Assembly (NCBI GenBank): GCA_903861125.1
Contig: CAIOTF010000014.1
Coordinates: 1-54,496 of the forward strand
DNA from: an uncultured Ignavibacteriota bacterium
GTDB taxonomy: Bacteria; Bacteroidota; Ignavibacteria; UBA10030; UBA8401
Direction of reading: 5' to 3'
DNA: 54,496 bases
Shown: positions 4,651-14,881 of the stretch, one piece after another
Layout of the letters: each line of letters begins with the position of its first letter
How positions within the stretch are numbered: the first letter of the stretch is position 1
Translations under genes and position numbers: made by a program
Notes under the pieces: model-generated
The model's database searches: none
Told to the model about the DNA's origin: nothing
What the model saw: only the letters and a program-made list of their open reading frames with translations

Positions 4651-6135
4651 ATGCCAAAATCATCACCATTCATCTCCAAATCCAAATACCTCACCGGCCT
4701 CCAATGCCACAAACTCCTGTGGTATAACTACAATGCAAAAGACGAAATCCCTGAAGTCAACGCAGGTCAACAAGCAATCTTCGATCAAGGCCATATCGTC
4801 GGTGAATTCGCAAAGCAACTCTTTCCCGGCGGTATCGAAGTTGCAAAAGGTATCATAGCGTTTGATAAAGTAATCGAACAATCGCAAAAACTAATTTCGG
4901 AACGTAAACCTCTCTTTGAAGCTGCATTCAAATACGAGTACGCCTATGCCCGTGTTGATATTCTCAATCCAGTCGGCAAAACAAAATGGGATATCATCGA
5001 GGTAAAAAGTTCAACTCAGGTAAAGGATATAAATCTTCACGATCTTGCACTGCAATGGTATACATATTCGGGAGCCGGGTTATCGCTCAACAAATGTTAT
5101 CTAATGCATATCAACAACCAATATGTGCGAAAAGGGGAGATCGATCCGAAAAAATTATTCATTCAAGAGGATGTGACTGCTCAAGTGTTAGAATATTTAT
5201 CTCAAGTAGAAGATAAACTTGAGGAAATGGTTAGTGTTATAGCAAAGAGAAGTTATCCCAGAATACCAATTGGACCGCATTGCAGTGATCCTTATGATTG
5301 TCCACTTACTGATATGTGCTGGGATTTCCTGCCGAAGCATAATCCATTTACATTATACCGATTCAAATCAGAAACGGCATTTTCACTCGTCAAAAAAGGT
5401 GTTACTGATGTCCTTTCATTTGGAGATGAAATTAGCCTTAATGAAAAGCAGCAGATACAGATCAACAGTATCCGTTCTAAAAAACCGCATATTGATAAAA
5501 ATGGAATTAAGTCATTCCTCAATGAATTGATCTATCCTTTATATTATCTCGATTTTGAAACGATCGGACCTGCACTCCCGTTGTTCGATGACTCCCGGCC
5601 ATACGAGCAGATTCCATTTCAATTCTCACTGCATATTCAGCAAACTCCGGATGCAAAACCAGAGCATATCAGCTTTCTTGCCGAGGGGATGGATGATCCT
5701 AGACCCGAGTTATTGCGATTACTGAAGAAGAATTTGGGAACGAAGGGATCTATTGTAACCTACAACGCATCGTTTGAAAAGGATAAGTTGAATAAAGCGA
5801 CCGAAGTATTCACAGAGTATAAAAAGTGGAATAAGGGTATCCAGGAGCGAATTGTGGACCTTCTCGACCCATTTAGAGCGTTCTACTATTATCATCCTTC
5901 TCAGATGGGGAGCGCGTCGATTAAAGCGGTCCTGCCGGCAATTACGGGCAAAGGATACGAAGGGATGGAGATCGCCGATGGCGGAACCGCCAGTAACGAA
6001 TATCTTCGAGTGACATTTGGTGAGAATGTGACTGAGGCCGAGCGGAAAAATGTGAGGAAGCAGCTTGAGGATTATTGTGAATTAGATACGATTGCCATGG
6101 CGAGGATAGTGTGGAAGTTGGGGAAGATGGCGTAG
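4651..6135 (+). CDS. DUF2779 protein: Cas4-like Fe-S PD-(D/E)XK nuclease fused to DEDD-type exonuclease-like domain
   Basis: The 494-residue protein has two visible nuclease-like halves. The N-terminal half has the PD-(D/E)XK signature, with an Asp in ARVDIL near residue 98 and ExK in IEVKSS at 117-119. It also has a Cas4-like cysteine set: Cys19 (GLQCHK) with Cys211, Cys217 and Cys223 in HCSDPYDCPLTDMCW, expected to bind a 4Fe-4S cluster. The C-terminal half has YYLDFET at about 298-304 and CELDTIAM near 476, the first and last acidic motifs of RNase-H-like DEDD exonucleases. This is the known DUF2779 architecture. No cas genes or CRISPR array accompany it, so I do not link it to CRISPR adaptation. 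Its base composition is closer to the core genes than its AT-rich neighbours. Confidence 0.8.
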   Translation: MPKSSPFISKSKYLTGLQCHKLLWYNYNAKDEIPEVNAGQQAIFDQGHIVGEFAKQLFPGGIEVAKGIIAFDKVIEQSQKLISERKPLFEAAFKYEYAYARVDILNPVGKTKWDIIEVKSSTQVKDINLHDLALQWYTYSGAGLSLNKCYLMHINNQYVRKGEIDPKKLFIQEDVTAQVLEYLSQVEDKLEEMVSVIAKRSYPRIPIGPHCSDPYDCPLTDMCWDFLPKHNPFTLYRFKSETAFSLVKKGVTDVLSFGDEISLNEKQQIQINSIRSKKPHIDKNGIKSFLNELIYPLYYLDFETIGPALPLFDDSRPYEQIPFQFSLHIQQTPDAKPEHISFLAEGMDDPRPELLRLLKKNLGTKGSIVTYNASFEKDKLNKATEVFTEYKKWNKGIQERIVDLLDPFRAFYYYHPSQMGSASIKAVLPAITGKGYEGMEIADGGTASNEYLRVTFGENVTEAERKNVRKQLEDYCELDTIAMARIVWKLGKMA

Positions 6136-7030: not shown

Positions 7031-8998
7031 ATGAAGAAACCAAAAATAAAAAATCTAATCGAGCGTCCCAAGAAAAGTGTTTTTGCCGTTCCCACCATTT
7101 ATAAAACTAAAATCAAAAATGCTGAAATAGAAATTGATTAAGAAAACTACGCCTCTGCGATTCAAACATTGAATAAACTGATCGAACAGTATCCAAATGA
7201 ACACGAAGCTCATTTTTTACGTTGTCATTGCAAAGTGAATATAGGAGATTTGGAAGATGCATTAAAAGATTCAGACCATTTAATTCAGTTAGGGAATAGT
7301 GATAAAAATATTTTATGGTATAATGCATTTTTGAAGGTGTCGTTTGGGAAATTAATGGATGCGGAAATCATATTAAAAAATATTTTGAATAAAGAGAGTA
7401 AAGATGTTGGTACCCTATTTTTGTTGGGATTTATTAAGTTAAGGCAATATGATCTTGGGAAGGCGATATTTTATTTTGATGAAGCTATCAAAATAAGCCC
7501 AGAAAAATATGAATCTTTAGCATTTCGCGGATTATCATATGCACACCAAGGTAAAGAATTACAAGCACTTTCAGATTTTGAGAATATACCTCTATATGAT
7601 AAAGAGCTACAATCACACGTCTCAACAGGTAAAGGAATTCTTTGTCTCCGAAAGGGTAATCTTTTCAATGCATTGAATAATTTTGACAAAGCAATCGAAA
7701 TATTTCCCAATAACCCGACCGGATATTATTTTCGTGGTATTGTAAAAATAGAATTAAAAGATCCTACGGCCGAAGATGATTTTCTGAAGGCTAACAAATC
7801 CGGTGGAGATGCCGCAGGTCTCCAAGAATCTGCAATTTATATGTATTTGAAAATCGTAATGGTAAGGGACATTTCAAAGGCTATGGTTATTGCAGCATAT
7901 GGTATTCAAAAGTTACCTGAAAGTGCTTTGTTATGGGAGTCCTTGAGTTCAATCCAATTCTATTGTGGTGAATATAAAAAGTCTTTGGAGTCAGCCAACC
8001 GTTCAATATTAATAATTAAAGAAAATGAAAATGCTTGGTATTATCGATTGATGTCAAAATTCTTACTGGGTGATAGAGAAGGTTGTGAGGAGGATTTTGT
8101 CGTTGCATTTAAGATGCTGGGGGATTCTCCTCTTATATATTATGTGGCAGGATTATGTGAATATTTAAATATATCACTCGAGAGTTATATTGAAAAGGCA
8201 TTGTCTAGTAATCCTAACGATCCTAGGACACTTTTTGTGAAGGGTGGTATACTGTATCAGAAGGGGGAAAAAGAAAAAGGAATGGATTGTTTTAGACTTG
8301 CACATGAGAATGGATATCCACTCACTGAATATGAATGTAAACAGTTTAGTGAATTATTTGCAAAAGAGTTGAGTTCGATTGATGAAAAGGAAAAACAAAG
8401 TAGTAATAAAGTTGGGTTGAAAGAAGTTGTCTCAGCTGAACAACCCAACATATTTCAACGAGATGGAGATATATGGCTATTGAAATATAATGGGGGAGAG
8501 ATAATAACATTAAAGGATAGTGTTGGGCTACGATATATCAAAATGTTGTTGGTGAAACCTCATCATCCTTTTCAATCAACTTTTATGGTGATGATTATTA
8601 ACAAAAACGTCGGTATGGAAATATCGAATGAAACTAATCTTGATAATTATAAATATGAAAGAAGGAAAAAATTAGATTCGAAAACTATGAAGATTTATAA
8701 AGATGATCTTGTAGATTCAGAAGCTGAGTTACAAGAAATGTCTTTAAATGATGAAAAATATGGAGAAATGGAAGAGCACACACAATGGTTAAAGAAACAA
8801 CTTTATAACGGGCAATTTAATGAAATTGATACGGATGATCTAAAGACATCAACTGCAGTTCGAAATGCAATTAACAGAGTGCGAAAACAAATAAAAGAGA
8901 AAGATGTTGATTTTGGTGAGCATCTTATTAATAATATAGATACGGGTTTGAGGGTTATTTACCGCCCGCCAACTGAAATATTATGGTCAGTAGGATAA
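7031..8998 (+). pseudogene. TPR protein with regulator-type C-terminal domain, interrupted by an in-frame TAA
   Basis: ATG at 7031 opens a 36-residue frame (MKKPKIKNLIERPKKS...) that meets TAA at 7139. The same frame continues directly with ENYASAIQTLNKLIEQYP, which is the first helix pair of a TPR repeat, and then stays open to 8998. Apart from a TTG at 7169 inside that repeat, there is no early start codon; the first in-frame ATG is about 60 residues later. The simplest reading is one gene broken by a nonsense change. About ten TPR units follow, to near 8350. The last 180 residues (DGDIWLLKYNGGEIITLKDS, then GLRYIKMLL, then AVRNAINRVRKQI and FGEHLINNIDTGLRVIYRPP) match a C-terminal winged-helix-like domain seen in cyclase/LuxR-type ATPase regulators. 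A sequencing error at the stop cannot be excluded. Confidence 0.65.
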
Positions 8999-9084
8999 CC
9001 ACATTATTATGCATTATGGTCAGGTAAATTATATGTAAACATCCTCAAATTGTCATCAAAATAGGATATATCCTATAAAATATG

Positions 9085-9129
9085 AAAGCCGAAACCGTCA
9101 CCTAACAAGTGGCTGTTTCGGCTTTTTCT
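9085..9129 (+). terminator. Rho-independent terminator
   Basis: AAAGCCGAAAC (9085-9095) and GTTTCGGCTTT (9115-9125) form a perfect 11-bp stem followed by TTTCTGTTTT. It closes the TPR gene and insulates the operator-like element 20 bases downstream. Confidence 0.8.
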
Positions 9130-9146
9130 GTTTTAAAGCCTGTTTT

Positions 9147-9184
9147 GTATGAAAACATACACGAGTTGTATGACATAATAAGTA
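9147..9184 (+). repeat. Operator/promoter-like 37-bp element, copy 1
   Basis: The element begins with the palindrome GTATG-AAAA-CATAC and continues with ACGAGTTGTATGACATAAT and AAGTA. A copy with one mismatch lies at 9754-9791. A further GTATG begins 21 bases after the first, two helical turns on. It sits 62 bases before the SD-led start at 9246, so it probably combines a regulator-binding site with a promoter. Confidence 0.6.
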
Positions 9185-9245
9185 GATGCAAGTCAACCAT
9201 ATCATAATTAACCCATATCACAAACAACATATAAAAGGAGTCACA

Positions 9246-9746
9246 ATGAAAAACGAAATCCTTAACGCTCTAAAAACGGTTCAAACCTTAGTTTCAAATC
9301 CTGGGTATGAAACACCGTTGTATGTTCGGTTGCGGACTACGACCGGCCGATTAATGGTCGGTATTAATTCAATAACTATCGATGATACAACCATTCGCCT
9401 CATCGATGACCAAAAAGGTGAGATAATCATCGAAGTTGCGGATGTAACTGCCGTAGAAGCATTCAAAGATTCTGTCGGTCGATCTATCTTTCTGAAGGAT
9501 TTTGAAAGTGAATCTACATTGGCTAGTGATTATATCAACGAGAACGAACTGCTTACTCAGATAGCGAATCGTGAGGCAGGGGAATGGCAAGAATTGATGC
9601 TGGATGCAGCCGGAATTGACAAAGAAATATCAACAGATATTATTTCTTCTTCAGATAAATCCAAGGCAAGAAATATTCGGAACGAAATGATTGCAAATCA
9701 GATCGAATATTTTTTCGAATCTTGGCAGGCTTTGAGAGCAGCATGA
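9246..9746 (+). CDS. Unrecognised island protein with Sm-like beta-rich N-terminal half
   Basis: AAAGGAG with 5 bases of spacing selects the ATG at 9246 (MKNEILNALKTV); an in-frame ATG at 9186 lacks an SD site. The 166-residue product has a short helix and then alternating strands (LYVRLRTTTGRLMVG, SITIDDTTIRLIDD, EIIIEVADVTAVEAF) that resemble an LSm/SH3-like small barrel in hydrophobic pattern. The C-terminal part (about residues 85-166) is helical and acidic. No signal peptide or membrane segment is visible. I recognise no family. It is the first gene after the 37-bp element, and its last bases lie just upstream of the second copy of that element. Confidence 0.6.
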   Translation: MKNEILNALKTVQTLVSNPGYETPLYVRLRTTTGRLMVGINSITIDDTTIRLIDDQKGEIIIEVADVTAVEAFKDSVGRSIFLKDFESESTLASDYINENELLTQIANREAGEWQELMLDAAGIDKEISTDIISSSDKSKARNIRNEMIANQIEYFFESWQALRAA

Positions 9747-9753
9747 TCAACAT

Positions 9754-9791
9754 GTATGTAAACATACACGAGTTGTATGACATAATAAGTA
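9754..9791 (+). repeat. Operator/promoter-like 37-bp element, copy 2
   Basis: GTATG-TAAA-CATAC followed by the same tail as copy 1, with one difference in 37 bases. It begins 8 bases after the stop codon of the 9246 gene. Such conservation in non-coding DNA next to freely evolving genes suggests a functional site or a recent duplication. ATG at 9791 overlaps its last base. Confidence 0.6.
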
Positions 9792-10000
9792 TGGAGACAG
9801 TAAACACAACACAGTTAAAAATAAACGATTCAGCACCCCACGAGTGTATTTCAAACTCTCCGGTTTTCTGGGAAACCGCAGACAATGTCTTGAAAGGACA
9901 TAATATTATGAAAACAGTAACTGTTAACACAGATTCAACAGTAAACCAGAAAAACTGGGCACTGGAAGCAACTCAACACATTCAACCAAAAGGAGATTTT

Positions 10001-10285
10001 ATGATTTATTCAACGATCGTTTTTACCGGTGGTAAATTCGGAAGGTTAACGAATTCAATTGTCAATCAACTGGAGCGCCACTTTGAGGTATGGGCATCAG
10101 AAGATCCAGATTCCACTTTTGAATTCAAATGGATCAAGGATTCTTTAATCTTTAGAACAAATAGTAGTGAATTGTTTAGTAAGTGGTTGATGATCGAGAA
10201 TGAATACATGAATTATATGTTAAGTGAAGATCAGATGATATTTGCTGTTCAATATGAAGATTATGATTACGCAAACGTTGCATAA
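10001..10285 (+). CDS. Unrecognised 94-residue island protein
   Basis: The best-supported start is ATG 10001, with AAAGGAG 6 bases before it. In-frame ATGs at 9908 (AAAGGA about 12 bases upstream) and 9791 would add 31 or 70 residues. The core reads MIYSTIVFTGGKFGRLTN, then a helix NQLERHFEVWAS, a strand pair FEFKWIKDSLIFRTN and a C-terminal helix and strand (MIFAVQYEDYDY), an alpha/beta pattern like a small ferredoxin-like fold. It is acidic and soluble. No family is recognised. The second copy of the 37-bp element lies 210 bases upstream, giving a long 5' leader if that is the promoter. The 254 bases between genes hold only that element and the alternative starts. Confidence 0.5.
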   Translation: MIYSTIVFTGGKFGRLTNSIVNQLERHFEVWASEDPDSTFEFKWIKDSLIFRTNSSELFSKWLMIENEYMNYMLSEDQMIFAVQYEDYDYANVA

Positions 10286-10295
10286 GGAGAACATA

Positions 10296-10340
10296 ATGAA
10301 AAACAATCTTGAACGTGCACCGCCTGTAAATACTAATTAA
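10296..10340 (+). CDS. 14-residue SD-led mini-ORF
   Basis: AAGGAG with 6 bases of spacing precedes ATG and a 14-codon frame (MKNNLERAPPVNTN) ending in TAA. The first codons repeat the MKN start of the 9246 gene. It may be a leader peptide for the TPR gene 40 bases downstream or the stub of a decayed gene. Confidence 0.3.
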   Translation: MKNNLERAPPVNTN

Positions 10341-10380
10341 CGCTCGATACACATTAACTACTAACTCAAGGAATCCAACT

Positions 10381-11028
10381 ATGTCAGACTTGAATGTAAA
10401 CTCAAAAATGTTTGTCGATGACCCGATGGTTCATTCGACCCAGCTGTTCAATGAAGGTCTTGCTTTAGCTGAAAAGGATGAATACGAAAATGCTCTTTCA
10501 GTTTTCGGTCAATACCGAAAGTTTCATCCGGAAGATCCGAAAGTATATTATCACCTTGCAGATTGTCATTACTCATTGCAAAAATATGATCATGCTTTGG
10601 AACTCGTTGACAGAGCAATTGCAATGGACGAAGAATATGGCGAAGCCTTTAGATTAAAAGGATTTATTCTAATCGAGAATAGAGAGTATAACATAGCAAT
10701 TCCTTTTCTCGAATATAGCAATGCAGTGTTGCCAGACGATGAACTTACATTGTCTGGATTGTTACGAGCTTATTTTCTTTCACGACTATTTAAGTCGGCA
10801 CTAGTATGCGTAAACAAACTTCTTGATAAAAAACCAAAACAAAAAGAATTGCGTGTATATGAAGCAGGAATATATGAGATGCTTGGTCAGATTGATAAAG
10901 CCATTTCGATAGCCGAAGAATTAGTAAAAGTTGATCCAGTTGATGAAAGACATGCAGAACAATTGGATTTGTATAAATGTATGAAGGAAGAACAGGATTT
11001 GAACCGCTACCCTGGAATGAACAACTAA
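10381..11028 (+). CDS. Small TPR-repeat protein of the island
   Basis: The 215-residue protein has a 20-residue acidic start and then about five tetratricopeptide units: EGLALAEKDEYENALSVF, KVYYHLADCHYSLQKYDHAL, GEAFRLKGFILIENREYNIA, a weaker one near residue 120, and RVYEAGIYEMLGQIDKAISI. The repeats end near residue 195 with a short polar tail. TPR arrays bind protein partners, so it is probably an adaptor or chaperone for another island protein. There is no signal peptide. AAGGAA lies 7 bases before the ATG. It has no enzymatic domain and is distinct from the larger interrupted TPR gene at 7031, which carries a regulator-type C-terminus. Confidence 0.75.
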   Translation: MSDLNVNSKMFVDDPMVHSTQLFNEGLALAEKDEYENALSVFGQYRKFHPEDPKVYYHLADCHYSLQKYDHALELVDRAIAMDEEYGEAFRLKGFILIENREYNIAIPFLEYSNAVLPDDELTLSGLLRAYFLSRLFKSALVCVNKLLDKKPKQKELRVYEAGIYEMLGQIDKAISIAEELVKVDPVDERHAEQLDLYKCMKEEQDLNRYPGMNN

Positions 11029-11055
11029 TGACACAAATAACAAACGGAGGTCACA

Positions 11056-11123
11056 ATGATCAAATGATACAAAAACATGCAACACCGATTCAACGTGGAC
11101 CAGAAAATCTGGTTCACAAATAG
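11056..11123 (+). other. Three-codon minigene (M-I-K-stop) overlapping a 19-codon ORF behind a consensus SD
   Basis: CGGAGG followed by TCACA precedes ATG-ATC-AAA-TGA at 11056-11067. A second ATG at 11064 overlaps that stop and opens a 19-residue frame (MIQKHATPIQRGPENLVHK) ending at 11123. The leader GGAGGTCACAATGA nearly matches the leader of the 9246 gene (GGAGTCACAATGA). It may be a decayed gene start or a translated leader for the gene at 11146. Confidence 0.35.
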
Positions 11124-11145
11124 TTCTCTAATAAGGAGATACACT

Positions 11146-11766
11146 ATGGACCCATTAACAAGCAATAAGCGAATCTCGAAAGCCGAGATTCTATCGCAGC
11201 GCCGAACATTTAACGGCGCAACAAAGCGTTACGATTCAGCAGAAAAGAAGCTGAAGACGATTGACAAGGAGTTGGAAAGAAAGTCGATTACATCGACTCG
11301 TCGGAAGACCTTGGCAACCCAGCGCATCCATTGGTTAGGAGAAAGGGATGCTGCGAACGTTGAAAAGGAACTGTCGAAGCAAAAGCTTAACTCCCACTTG
11401 GATCACAACAAGGGGATCGATTCAGCTGAACGAATCGAGAAGAGCAAAGCAGGCAATGTTAAATTGCGAGTTGGCAAGTTAACATTCACGCTGCAGAAGC
11501 ACCTCAAATCTTCTGAGTTACCAGTAGATTCAAAAGAGCGAATTGTGTCGGCAATTCAGAAAGACGATACACAGCAATTCCGAGATGTTCTTGCAGTAGT
11601 AGTAAAGAACAATTCGAAGATCAAGGTCAGATTTGAAGGTGTGCCTGACGAGGTCAGCGGCCCACTGTTGGCAAGCATGATGAAGTGGTTCAAGTCCCGT
11701 TATGATATTGTAACGGATGAATCATCATCAAAATCTACGCCAGTTGTTGCTCCAGAAGTAGCTTAA
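11146..11766 (+). CDS. Unrecognised basic coiled-coil island protein
   Basis: AAGGAG with 7 bases of spacing sets the ATG at 11146 (MDPLTSNKRISKAE). The 206-residue protein begins with a strongly basic helical region (residues about 8-80, rich in Lys, Arg and Glu, heptad-like: RYDSAEKKLKTIDKELERK). After that comes a more globular part with strands VKLRVGKLTFTLQK and KIKVRFEGV, ending in a Ser/Pro-rich tail. Such basic coiled-coil proteins often bind nucleic acid or pack with phage-type complexes, but this is inference only. The GC content is higher than in the surrounding island genes. A GC-rich hairpin begins 13 bases after the stop codon. Confidence 0.6.
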   Translation: MDPLTSNKRISKAEILSQRRTFNGATKRYDSAEKKLKTIDKELERKSITSTRRKTLATQRIHWLGERDAANVEKELSKQKLNSHLDHNKGIDSAERIEKSKAGNVKLRVGKLTFTLQKHLKSSELPVDSKERIVSAIQKDDTQQFRDVLAVVVKNNSKIKVRFEGVPDEVSGPLLASMMKWFKSRYDIVTDESSSKSTPVVAPEVA

Positions 11767-11778
11767 AGAAAAGATATA

Positions 11779-11802
11779 CCGGGCCGGCGAATGCTGGCCC
11801 GG
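11779..11802 (+). other. GC-rich intergenic hairpin with GAAT loop
   Basis: CCGGGCCGGC and GCTGGCCCGG pair over 10 bases with one G-T wobble around GAAT, followed by AAGTTTTAT. It lies between two island genes in the same position as the hairpins at 12483 and 13004. It may be a terminator, attenuator or RNA-processing/stability site. Confidence 0.55.
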
Positions 11803-11834
11803 AAGTTTTATAAAACATAAGAAAGAGCTTACTT

Positions 11835-12470
11835 ATGAAAAAACAGAACGGAAATTCGTTTGGGTCGAGATACAAGGAATTCTCCAAGGAATATAAAAAA
11901 CTTGGAAACAAATATGACAACGGGAAGTTGAAGAGCAATGAATGCTCGAAAGAAATTGGAAACCTGTTGAAGTATAATCAAGAGATGATCGCAGGTGATT
12001 GTGCAGCAAAAGATACACTGGAGATTATGCAACAACCATTATCCCCATTAGCCTATCAAGCATCTGAAATGTTGGCTTTTAGAGGAAGATACAAAGTGGA
12101 AGTAGCAGAGTTCAGTGCAAAAACATTGAACTATATACTCGAAAATGAAGGGATGAAAGGAAACGAAGATATTATCAATCGGTTGGTATCCCGCATCAGT
12201 GAAGGAGGTGAAAAAGGATTAATAGCATACAATGATATTGAAAAACTGCTTTCAGAGAAAAGAATCTCAAGATATCTGAAGTTGAATATTAGAACTTACT
12301 TTTGTGTAATGGGTGATTTCAAAACCGAAGCTCTAGCCCATTTCGTAAAGCTAATTCAATGCAAGGATCCTGAATATCGATTGGATGCTCAACATCAGTA
12401 TCAAGTAGATATTTTCAAAGAAAAGTTAAAAAGAGCATTAAAAGATAATGCCAATAGAAACAAGAAATAG
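11835..12470 (+). CDS. Unrecognised helical island protein
   Basis: The 211-residue protein starts MKKQNGNSFGSRYKEF, with AAAGAG 9 bases upstream of the ATG. It is Lys/Glu-rich and predicted almost wholly helical. Phrases such as PLAYQASEMLAFRGRYKVEVAEFSA and EGMKGNEDIINRLVSRISEG suggest HEAT-like helical packing around a short hydrophobic core, without membrane segments or signal peptide. No catalytic motif is visible and no family is recognised. It lies between two GC-rich hairpins (11779 and 12483), so its mRNA may be processed away from its neighbours. Confidence 0.6.
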   Translation: MKKQNGNSFGSRYKEFSKEYKKLGNKYDNGKLKSNECSKEIGNLLKYNQEMIAGDCAAKDTLEIMQQPLSPLAYQASEMLAFRGRYKVEVAEFSAKTLNYILENEGMKGNEDIINRLVSRISEGGEKGLIAYNDIEKLLSEKRISRYLKLNIRTYFCVMGDFKTEALAHFVKLIQCKDPEYRLDAQHQYQVDIFKEKLKRALKDNANRNKK

Positions 12471-12482
12471 ATGCAAATATAT

Positions 12483-12500
12483 GCCGGCGGAAACGCCGGC
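12483..12500 (+). other. Perfect GC-rich hairpin with GAAA tetraloop, copy 1
   Basis: GCCGGCG-GAAA-CGCCGGC forms a 7-bp stem with a GNRA tetraloop. The upstream flank TAGATGCAAATAT begins at the stop codon of the preceding gene, and the SD sequence GGAAAGG of the next gene follows directly. The same hairpin with nearly the same upstream flank recurs at 13004. Its abutment on the SD suggests a 5' stabiliser or regulator of translation. Confidence 0.65.
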
Positions 12501-12514
12501 GGAAAGGTATAAAT

Positions 12515-12937
12515 ATGATACTATTTAAAGATATACAAAATACGGATGAACAGATTCAATACTTTAGCGAGAAAAAGATAATATGCCAACGGTTCAATAG
12601 TCCAAGAGGTATTGCATATGAATTGTCTGTTGAGTGGAAACAAACGCCTTTAACTGCTACGTTTTACTCCGATAAAGAATGCAAAACATTTTTTCTTGAA
12701 ATGATATCACAACAAGCTGTTGATCCAAAGTCATATTGGAATGTTCTCAAAACACTGAAAGGGTTGAAGGTTCCCCGTATTCTTACTTGGGAATTAATGG
12801 ATTCAGGATATTATTCACTGAGAACATTGACTGACGATCGTGATGTCTTGGAGGATATCAATTACACACTGAAAAAAATGGCTAAACTCTTTTTAACTTT
12901 TGTGCCAGAAATTGAATTAATCGCACGCGGTAATTAA
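12515..12937 (+). CDS. Unrecognised 140-residue island protein
   Basis: GGAAAGG with 7 bases of spacing precedes the ATG (MILFKDIQNTDEQIQ). The protein is of mixed alpha/beta pattern: strands ICQRFNSPRGIAYELSVEW and PLTATFYSD, a helix around ECKTFFLEMISQ, then LKTLKGLKVPRILTWELMD and a C-terminal helix (INYTLKKMAKLFLTF). There is no membrane segment, signal peptide or known motif. It is the last gene before the integrase and is bracketed by the two identical GAAA hairpins at 12483 and 13004. Confidence 0.55.
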   Translation: MILFKDIQNTDEQIQYFSEKKIICQRFNSPRGIAYELSVEWKQTPLTATFYSDKECKTFFLEMISQQAVDPKSYWNVLKTLKGLKVPRILTWELMDSGYYSLRTLTDDRDVLEDINYTLKKMAKLFLTFVPEIELIARGN

Positions 12938-13003
12938 ACGTATTTTAGGTCTCTTTACTAAAAAGGACAAAATCCGTTGTGTTTAGCAATTAGATACAAA
13001 TAT

Positions 13004-13025
13004 GCCGGCGGAAACGCCGGCTTTT
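13004..13025 (+). terminator. GC-rich hairpin with GAAA tetraloop and T-run, copy 2
   Basis: The same GCCGGCG-GAAA-CGCCGGC hairpin as at 12483 is here followed by TTTT, so it can act as a rho-independent terminator. It ends only 17 bases before the integrase ATG. It probably shields the integrase from upstream transcription or acts as an attenuator. Confidence 0.65.
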
Positions 13026-13037
13026 AATTAAATCACT

Positions 13038-14192
13038 ATGACACTCACCCAACTTCCTAAATATTTGCTGCACGATCATCGGCTGCTAGCACTATACTGT
13101 TTCCTTCAAATGGGAAGGAATAGTCAACCGTCGAAGATTCGTTTAAACGGAGTTGTCGTTGAAGTTAAAGAGAATGAATCCGTTGTTTCAAATGAAGACA
13201 TCATCGCTGCAACGGGTATTCAATCAGAAATAATACCAGACCTGATGACAAGTTTGGATGAAGTAGAATTGTTGAAGATAGCGGAAATCAGTTCTGGCTA
13301 TTATAAAGTTAGATCACAACAAAATGAAAGTATTCCTGTCTCAGAGACATTCGAGGAGTTTTCCAAGAAATACATTGAATATGTCTCATCCAATATGGCA
13401 CCGAAAACATTGGACAATGCGAAGAGAGTCATTAAAGCTTTTTGCATATATGCAGGCAGTAAGTCGATAGCAGGTTTTACCGCTGAAGATATTGAAGAAT
13501 TCAAACGGAAACGAAAAGATGAAGTCGGTCTGACAACTATTAATATGGATATCCGAACAATAAGAGCAGCGTTCAACGTAGCTATCTCATGGAAACGAAT
13601 CAAAGAGAATCCCTGCGATTCTGTTAAACAGCTGAAGATAAATGATGAGAAAACTAAGTTCTTTGCACGCGAACAGTGCGATCTTCTATTAGCGAATATC
13701 AAAGATGCGTGGTTCAGACGCATCGTTTTGTTCGCAATTGTTACCGGACTTCGCAGAGGAGAAATACCGAATCTAAAATGGACCGATTATGATCAAGAAA
13801 AACAAACAATTTCAATCCAGTCAAGCAGTGAATATCGAGTAAAGGGCGGTAAAGCTAGAACAATCGTGTTGCATGAGGATGCAATAAAGATTTTACAGTT
13901 GATACCGAGAAAGGGTGAACTAATATTTGTTAGGGACCAAGGAGAACCAGTCGATGCGAGTCATATTTCAAAGAAGCTTAAGAAATTGATCCGAAAACTT
14001 GGGCTACCGGAAGATCTTCATTTCCATTCTCTTCGTCATACGTTCGGAACATACGCTGCCGATGCCGGTGTGCCAGTCAATACTATTAAAGAAATAATGG
14101 GACACTCATCGATCTTGACGACACAGAATTATATTGGTGTGAATCGTGAAGTAATGAAGAACGAGTTGAAAAAAATCTCAATGCCATGTTGA
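13038..14192 (+). CDS. Tyrosine recombinase (integrase) with extra N-terminal winged-helix-like domain
   Basis: The 384-residue protein has the full tyrosine recombinase catalytic set: Arg in TGLRRGE (about residue 237), Lys in KGGKAR (about 268), HxxR in HSLRHTF (about 330), His in GHSS (about 355) and the nucleophile Tyr in TTQNYIGV (about 365). The SAM-like core-binding domain covers about 95-185. Ahead of it, residues 1-90 form an additional domain: YLLHDHRLLALYCFLQMG, then VSNEDIIAATGIQSE, then a strand turn ISSGYYKVRS. It resembles the winged-helix start of phage replisome organisers. The gene lies at the right end of the element, 130 bases from the tRNA-Lys fragment it presumably recombines. 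It has no SD sequence, and a terminator-like hairpin lies just upstream. Confidence 0.9.
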   Translation: MTLTQLPKYLLHDHRLLALYCFLQMGRNSQPSKIRLNGVVVEVKENESVVSNEDIIAATGIQSEIIPDLMTSLDEVELLKIAEISSGYYKVRSQQNESIPVSETFEEFSKKYIEYVSSNMAPKTLDNAKRVIKAFCIYAGSKSIAGFTAEDIEEFKRKRKDEVGLTTINMDIRTIRAAFNVAISWKRIKENPCDSVKQLKINDEKTKFFAREQCDLLLANIKDAWFRRIVLFAIVTGLRRGEIPNLKWTDYDQEKQTISIQSSSEYRVKGGKARTIVLHEDAIKILQLIPRKGELIFVRDQGEPVDASHISKKLKKLIRKLGLPEDLHFHSLRHTFGTYAADAGVPVNTIKEIMGHSSILTTQNYIGVNREVMKNELKKISMPC

Positions 14193-14216
14193 CAAAACAG
14201 GAAAAAAAACTATATT
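14189..14216 (+). promoter_or_regulatory. Sigma70-like promoter at the end of the integrase gene, pointing outwards
   Basis: TTGACA (14189-14194) is followed by a 16-base spacer and TATATT (14211-14216). It overlaps the integrase stop codon and points at the tRNA junction. In a circularised element it would read across the attachment site into the unseen left end. Confidence 0.4.
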
Positions 14217-14244
14217 GCATATACAAATTTAACACACTGGTGCT

Positions 14245-14272
14245 GTTGAAAATTTGTTGAAAAACGTTCAAC
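14245..14272 (+). other. Possible integrase arm-type sites
   Basis: GTTGAAAA occurs at 14245 and again at 14256, exactly 11 bases apart, followed by an inverted partial copy GTTCAAC at 14266. Short repeats spaced by one helical turn between an integrase gene and its tRNA target are typical of arm-type binding sites. Confidence 0.4.
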
Positions 14273-14321
14273 CGATGATCAACGAAAGTGGCGAAATTAG
14301 ATTGTATTGACCAGTCGGCCT

Positions 14322-14367
14322 TTCTTTTAAGCAGAGGGTCGATGGTTCGAGACCATCCGCGATCACA
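14322..14367 (+). other. 3' half of tRNA-Lys (UUU): attachment-site remnant
   Basis: CTTTTAA (14324-14330) is a Lys anticodon loop with anticodon TTT. GCAGA follows as the 3' anticodon strand, then the variable loop and the T arm GATGG-TTCGAGA-CCATC (14341-14357), then the acceptor strand CGCGATC and the discriminator A. The sequence upstream has no D arm and no matching 5' acceptor, so only the 3' half is present. This is what remains at one end when an element integrates within a tRNA gene and carries a replacement 3' half to the other end. Confidence 0.75.
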
Positions 14368-14369
14368 AT

Positions 14370-14396
14370 AAAGCCCAGTATTTACTGGGCTTTTGT
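14370..14396 (+). terminator. Terminator of the split tRNA gene
   Basis: AAAGCCCAGT (14370-14379) and ACTGGGCTTT (14384-14393) form a 10-bp stem with a 4-base loop, then TTTTG. It directly follows the tRNA remnant and is presumably the original tRNA terminator. Confidence 0.75.
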
Positions 14397-14446
14397 ATTT
14401 TAAAGGATACGGCAGTGAATGGCTGCTAACAGAATTGCTAACACGC

Positions 14447-14881
14447 TTAGATCCGATGATGATCTGCCCGCCAGGTTTTGATTGCCTTCTTAATATCTTC
14501 CCGCGAAAGTTTTTCATCAACAGCACGTTTTGCCAGAGGTAAAAATTCCTCGTCCGTTGCAAACCGCAATGCAATGATCTGTCCCATTGTCAAGTTCGGA
14601 TCAAACTGTTTACCCGTCAATGCAAAATGACGCAGATTTTCTTCCGCACGAATTGCACGATCCTGCACCCTCACGGCAAATGCCCGGCTGTACCAGAATT
14701 GGATCAATCCGCAGAACGTAAGAACGGTGATCAATGATGCGCTGTAAATGGATTGATTGCTGCAGCAGGATTCATAGATATTGACCAGCGATCCGATGAA
14801 TGTTATGGTGAGTAAGAATAAGAGCAGTCCGTGATACTGAGGAACATATCGACGATGGTTTGAATAATTTTGATTTTCCAT
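14447..14881 (-). CDS. DUF6526 family membrane protein
   Basis: The 144-residue protein starts MENQNYSNHRRYVPQYHG, has two predicted membrane helices (about residues 18-37 and 45-65) and a cytoplasmic C-terminal part. The conserved phrases RAEENLRHFALTGK, LTMGQIIALRFATDEEF and KKAIKTWRADHHRI are the family hallmark. Proteins of this type are widespread single genes in Bacteroidota and related phyla; no function is established. It is the first core-type gene beyond the integration junction, oriented towards it, with 50 bases between its stop and the tRNA terminator. No partner gene is adjacent. Confidence 0.85.
   Translation of the reverse strand: MENQNYSNHRRYVPQYHGLLLFLLTITFIGSLVNIYESCCSNQSIYSASLITVLTFCGLIQFWYSRAFAVRVQDRAIRAEENLRHFALTGKQFDPNLTMGQIIALRFATDEEFLPLAKRAVDEKLSREDIKKAIKTWRADHHRI

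Follow-up and report, generated by a model that had tools for sequence, protein, structure and literature searches.

Two near-identical 39-nt segments in the window, which is the whole 54,496-nt stretch of DNA that was analysed, are probably (at roughly 60%) duplicates of one putative operator-promoter under the control of a regulator encoded by the mobile element that carries them. The arrangement is of an ordinary, known kind; this instance of it is new, and the family of elements to which it belongs is little known.

The 39-nt repeat and its surroundings

The two copies form a direct repeat on the + strand (9146-9184 and 9753-9791), are 607 nt apart, and have a single mismatch, A9152 versus T9759, which falls at the centre of the first dyad. 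The original prediction of two near-identical copies that differ at one base was borne out, but the block is 39 nt long and not 37. Similarly, the predicted palindrome and the third GTATG at 21 were found, with the unit corrected to TGTATG-N4-CATACA-N5-TGTATG, in which half-sites of alternating orientation start at +0, +10 and +21, a spacing of 10 and 11 bp, or about one helical turn. In copy 1 the half-sites are TGTATG at 9146, CATACA at 9156 and TGTATG at 9167; in copy 2 they start at 9753, 9763 and 9774. An extended -10-like box, TGACATAAT, overlaps the third half-site in both copies (9171-9179 and 9778-9786, + strand), and the block stops 5 nt past the -10-like hexamer, close to the expected transcription start.

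Direct repeats were scanned without gaps (at least 28 nt, at least 88% identity, with a low-complexity filter), and the 39-nt pair was the only one in the window. Such ungapped repeats are not very rare: at least one turned up in 3 of 16 20-kb pieces of the host and, among 20 loci of related genomes that carry an integrase, in 9; among these nine loci, close examination was confined to one, L094. A gapped scan of the window also scored a pair of terminator-like hairpins (12465-12500 and 12988-13021; 36 columns, 88.9%), and the duplicated hairpin GCCGGCGGAAACGCCGGC lies at 12483-12500 and 13004-13021, ahead of the genes at 12515 and 13038. The pattern GTATGN4CATACN7GTATG, with up to three mismatches, gave 8 matches in the window compared to a shuffled mean of 1.16 (largest 5), and 6 of the 8 were on or across the two copies. 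With up to two mismatches, the same pattern gave 11 matches in the organism's own genome (5 at the copies), compared to 7 for the reversed control. A weaker look-alike had been noted near 9033; as a third copy, the segment there (9030) agreed at 23 of 39 positions, and because 30 simulated 14.4-kb sequences reach 22-25 by chance, the look-alike was not established and was dropped.

Both copies point along the genes that they precede, all of which are on the + strand. Upstream lies gene 7169 (7169-8998), which encodes a tetratricopeptide repeat (TPR) protein, followed by a hairpin with a T-run that reads as a terminator (9085-9127; a consensus scan lists its 9111-9123 portion), and copy 1 stands between this terminator and gene A (9246-9746). 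Copy 2 begins seven nt past the stop codon of gene A, upstream of gene B (10001-10285). A near-identical site is found in the same orientation upstream of two genes, as would be expected of a co-regulated pair. The distance from copy to start codon is 61 nt for gene A versus 209 nt for gene B. The SD-led starts that had been placed at 9246 and 10001 are present, each behind AAAGGAG, and relatives back their positions: invariant columns begin with the Met at 10001 in an alignment of five gene B proteins, and in two related loci, L105 and L106, the frame offers no earlier start than the matching Met. The 209 nt between copy 2 and gene B (9792-10000, + strand) are probably a leader. Since 9791-10000 is stop-free in the frame of gene B, which was expected in 3.6% of simulations, it is possible that gene B carries an N-terminal extension across 9792-10000.

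Gene A has no confident domain and a poor fold model (pLDDT 41.7); by eye and from that model, residues 26-75 might form a small beta barrel followed by helices. The model of gene B is partly usable (pLDDT 58.3) and had no PDB match at E<=0.001. Gene A had no match in phages, plasmids or IMG/VR, nor in 197 other genomes of the phylum, a set without G314, the genome that holds a homologue; gene B had no match in IMG/VR. Elsewhere in the window, 4651-6135 encodes a DUF2779 protein (Pfam E 1.3e-40), for which a weak Cas4-like match was also seen (E 4.6e-05).

Past gene B lie another TPR gene (10381-11028, + strand), three further genes of no recognised function and a tyrosine integrase gene (13038-14192, + strand). 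Downstream of the integrase gene, 43 bases (14324-14366, + strand) repeat the terminal 43 bases of contig C47 exactly; these form the 3′ portion of the tRNA-Lys (TTT) gene at C47:1-73. This repeat therefore marks the right end of an integrated element (attR). An integrase gene beside a repeated tRNA 3′ end is the arrangement of tRNA-integrated elements, and by these marks the 39-nt copies evidently sit inside a tRNA-Lys-integrated mobile element of a little-known family. Its left end is outside the window, whose first base is also that of the contig. A search of genome contigs with the integrase returned six distant matches (23-35% identity). At its N terminus the integrase is extended by about 100 residues, which weakly match a DnaD-like helicase loader (E 0.045), and most of its relatives align only from about residue 100.

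Related elements and their leaders

Among 390 other genomes of the class, three have homologues of gene B, at four places in all: two in L094 (G314), one in L105 (G471) and one in L106 (G021). All three loci have a recombinase and a tRNA gene nearby. L094 repeats the order of the window, with a domain of the gene 7169 type, a terminator, gene A, gene B and a TPR gene ahead of an integrase. The C-terminal 200 residues of the gene 7169 product have a counterpart in the L094 protein whose gene directly precedes gene A (23% identity), the gene A homologue of L094 (11124-11603) is 24% identical, and a similar terminator occupies the same place ahead of it.

Absence of the motif upstream of homologous genes had been named as a refutation of the original prediction, and L094 went against part of that prediction. 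Homologues of the genes at 9246 and 10001 are both present there, adjacent and in order, without the motif: the best match to the 39-mer was 20/39 upstream of gene A and 15/39 between genes A and B, while the best elsewhere in the compared L094 region was 24/39, inside a gene. The best matches in L105 and L106 were 21/39 and 20/39. No copy with up to three mismatches was found in the 390 other genomes of the class, and no further copy was found in IMG/VR, GTDB contigs or plasmids. A blastn search of phages at E<=10 returned 18 records, the best with an E value of 0.6, which were taken as chance. An Rfam scan of window 8900-14500 gave a single match, far under its gathering score. Since L094 has genes A and B without the 39-mer, the motif does not travel with the genes and is, across the collections searched, specific to this element. 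Conservation of the motif is expected only if its regulator is conserved too, so that its absence from L094 lowers the claim and still allows a local pair.

L094 has a repeated non-coding pair of its own (13664-13731 and 13968-14035; 68 nt, one mismatch), each copy of which precedes a small gene with an SD (13760 and 14062). The 68-nt segment is also present, in one copy each, in L105 and L106, where it directly precedes a gene start. Together these make up a family of leaders of about 70 nt (L094:13662-13736 and 13966-14040, L105:11569-11643, L106:9929-10002) with a predicted two-helix fold. RNAalifold on the four sequences gave 17 pairs, 3 of them with changes on both sides. The controls, with four sequences only, were mixed: 16 of 500 shuffles reached the pairing percentage and covariation score, 66 of 500 reached the number of double-change pairs, and 368 of 500 reached the number of further types. 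Single sequences folded better than shuffled ones in two of the three tested (z -2.05, -1.90 and 0.09). A covariance model of the four leaders, run on 98 genomes of the order, recovered these four in three of the genomes together with four weak matches (E 0.06-0.39), and had no match in the window. One segment of the window, 9825-9912, could be loosely aligned to the family and is not counted as a member because the model fails to match the window. The exact leader pattern was absent from IMG/VR, and Rfam on L094, L105 and L106 reported three tRNAs and one weak match on a tRNA, with the leader unmatched. Compared to the 39-nt pair, the L094 pair differs in sequence, occupies other intergenic gaps and has the look of an RNA leader, and is an analogy only. 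Since the segment is of a different kind, its support extends only to a general point, namely the copying of control segments inside such elements.

Other non-coding stretches are shared among these loci. A hairpin-like leader, CCAGAAAATCTGGTTCA, is common to window 11100-11119 and L094:11989-12008 (19/20 identical), before SD-led genes, and L105 and L106 share two conserved non-coding stretches before genes, one at about 11060-11110 of L105 and 9460-9506 of L106 (86% over 49 nt) and another at about 12045-12090 and 10400-10440.

The operator-promoter reading and its alternatives

The proposal of an operator and promoter gained from the anatomy of the copies, namely their post-terminator or intergenic position, their placement on the gene strand, the phased half-sites and the extended -10-like box, and lost from the lack of motif conservation in L094 and the absence of the motif from the 390 other genomes of the class. 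The + strand of the 54.5-kb window has five occurrences of TGN[CT]ATAAT, two of them in the 39-nt copies. The arrangement of domain, terminator and gene A repeated in L094 speaks for the proposal, as does the analogous non-coding pair ahead of SD-led small genes there. Promoter statistics were taken from 121 upstream regions in 360 kb of host sequence, in which TTGnnn-N15-18-TAnnnT is enriched upstream of genes (58 forward and 28 reverse, compared to 29.8 ± 5.5 shuffled) and the extended -10 TGnTAnnnT is not (17 forward, 25 reverse, 21.8 shuffled). Against the proposal, neither copy has the host-enriched TTG...TAnnnT arrangement; a consensus scan lists copy 2 only, as TAAACA-16-CATAAT with TG, and copy 1 is unlisted. 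The lack of the host-enriched arrangement would fit a promoter that is weak or regulated, or a site of another kind.

If the copies are operator-promoters, RNA polymerase would use TGACATAAT as an extended -10, and transcription would start near 9185-9187 and 9792-9794. The phased half-sites, which span the -35/-10 region, would be bound by an element-encoded dimer or oligomer, and since a half-site protein would cover -35 to -10, a repressor is preferred; by its position, the bound protein would more likely repress than activate. Genes A and B would thereby be switched on and off together. Against the reading, no regulator gene was recognised, and Pfam named no helix-turn-helix domain in the element proteins scanned. 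The candidate regulators are the product of gene 7169, as a conserved neighbour, or any protein from the part of the element left of the contig. The C-terminal domain of the gene 7169 product, a putative winged helix that no scan confirmed, is distantly related to sequences in actinobacterial records, of which one bears the annotation AAA family ATPase.

The pair could also be the relic of a recent chance duplication that copied a promoter segment before gene B, with no shared regulator. No other copy of the 39-mer was found anywhere tested, which speaks for a relic, and the near-identical 68-nt pair of L094 shows that segment copying happens in these elements. We nevertheless consider a relic unlikely: the shared block is only 39 nt with sharp ends around a promoter-sized stretch, and the sole mismatch sits at the dyad centre.

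Direct repeats that bracket one gene, a CATAC-N7-GTATG within the block that has the form of a core site, and an integrase gene 3.2 kb downstream would fit sites for the element integrase or another recombinase, flanking gene A as a 607-bp cassette. Yet the integrase has its own site at the tRNA-Lys end, which by eye has no core in common with the 39-nt block, gene A of L094 adjoins gene B without either site, there is no third site after gene B, and the assembled sequence showed no empty or rearranged form, so that such a role is improbable. Still less probable is a replication, partition or transfer site (iterons) of the excised element. Short, phased and repeated half-sites beside genes of no recognised function would suit iterons; there are, however, no more than two copies, spaced at 607 bp, both are positioned at, and oriented with, the start of a gene, and no initiator or partition gene was recognised among the proteins scanned. 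No positive evidence was found for either a recombination or a replication site. It is very improbable that the copies act after transcription as an RNA leader with a GUAUG-loop-CAUAC hairpin, since the folding energies around them are not unusual (z -0.27 and -0.44), a result that points to a DNA element rather than an RNA one, and the distances to the start codons differ, even though the single mismatch would lie in the loop and other leaders of the element family look structured.

If the operator-promoter reading is right, the pair marks a control point of an uncharacterised mobile element and provides a handle for finding its regulator. Several elements share small gene families and a recurring leader unmatched in Rfam, and this is perhaps more generally useful than the pair itself.

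Likeness to known systems

The SAS and ESAS of Cluster K mycobacteriophages are non-coding sequences that recur just upstream of gene starts; inverted repeats are present in half of these sequences, whose function the paper on them leaves undetermined (PMC3203893). The 39-mer is like them, as there described, in being repeated immediately upstream of the starts of unrelated mobile-element genes. In contrast, SAS and ESAS occur in many copies per genome and are kept with gene families across phages, while the 39-mer has two copies in one element, is not kept with genes and has a different motif; by eye, it has no resemblance to the 13-nt SAS consensus given in that paper. The operators of temperate-phage repressors and the stoperators of mycobacteriophages (PMC9283540) offer a likeness in mechanism, in that one element-encoded regulator acts at several sites on its own element, as is proposed here; stoperator recognition is asymmetric according to the title of that paper, whereas the half-sites of the 39-mer alternate. 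Unlike for phage repressor operators, no repressor gene was recognised here. Ribbon-helix-helix operators have short half-sites about one turn apart, as in the 39-mer. Operators of this type such as that of relBE are bound by repressor dimers (PMC2812701); unlike in relBE-type systems, no ribbon-helix-helix gene was found among the element proteins scanned.

A broader view, which we put forward tentatively and rate as doubtful, is that members of a little-described family of elements integrated at tRNA genes assemble small regulons from copies of their own non-coding control segments, placed before unrelated small genes, each element with its own fast-changing regulator and sites. In this element, the segment would be a 39-bp operator-promoter with three half-sites, and in L094 a 68-nt structured RNA leader outside Rfam. 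Elements of this kind would resemble phage immunity systems, in which each phage has its own regulator and matching sites.
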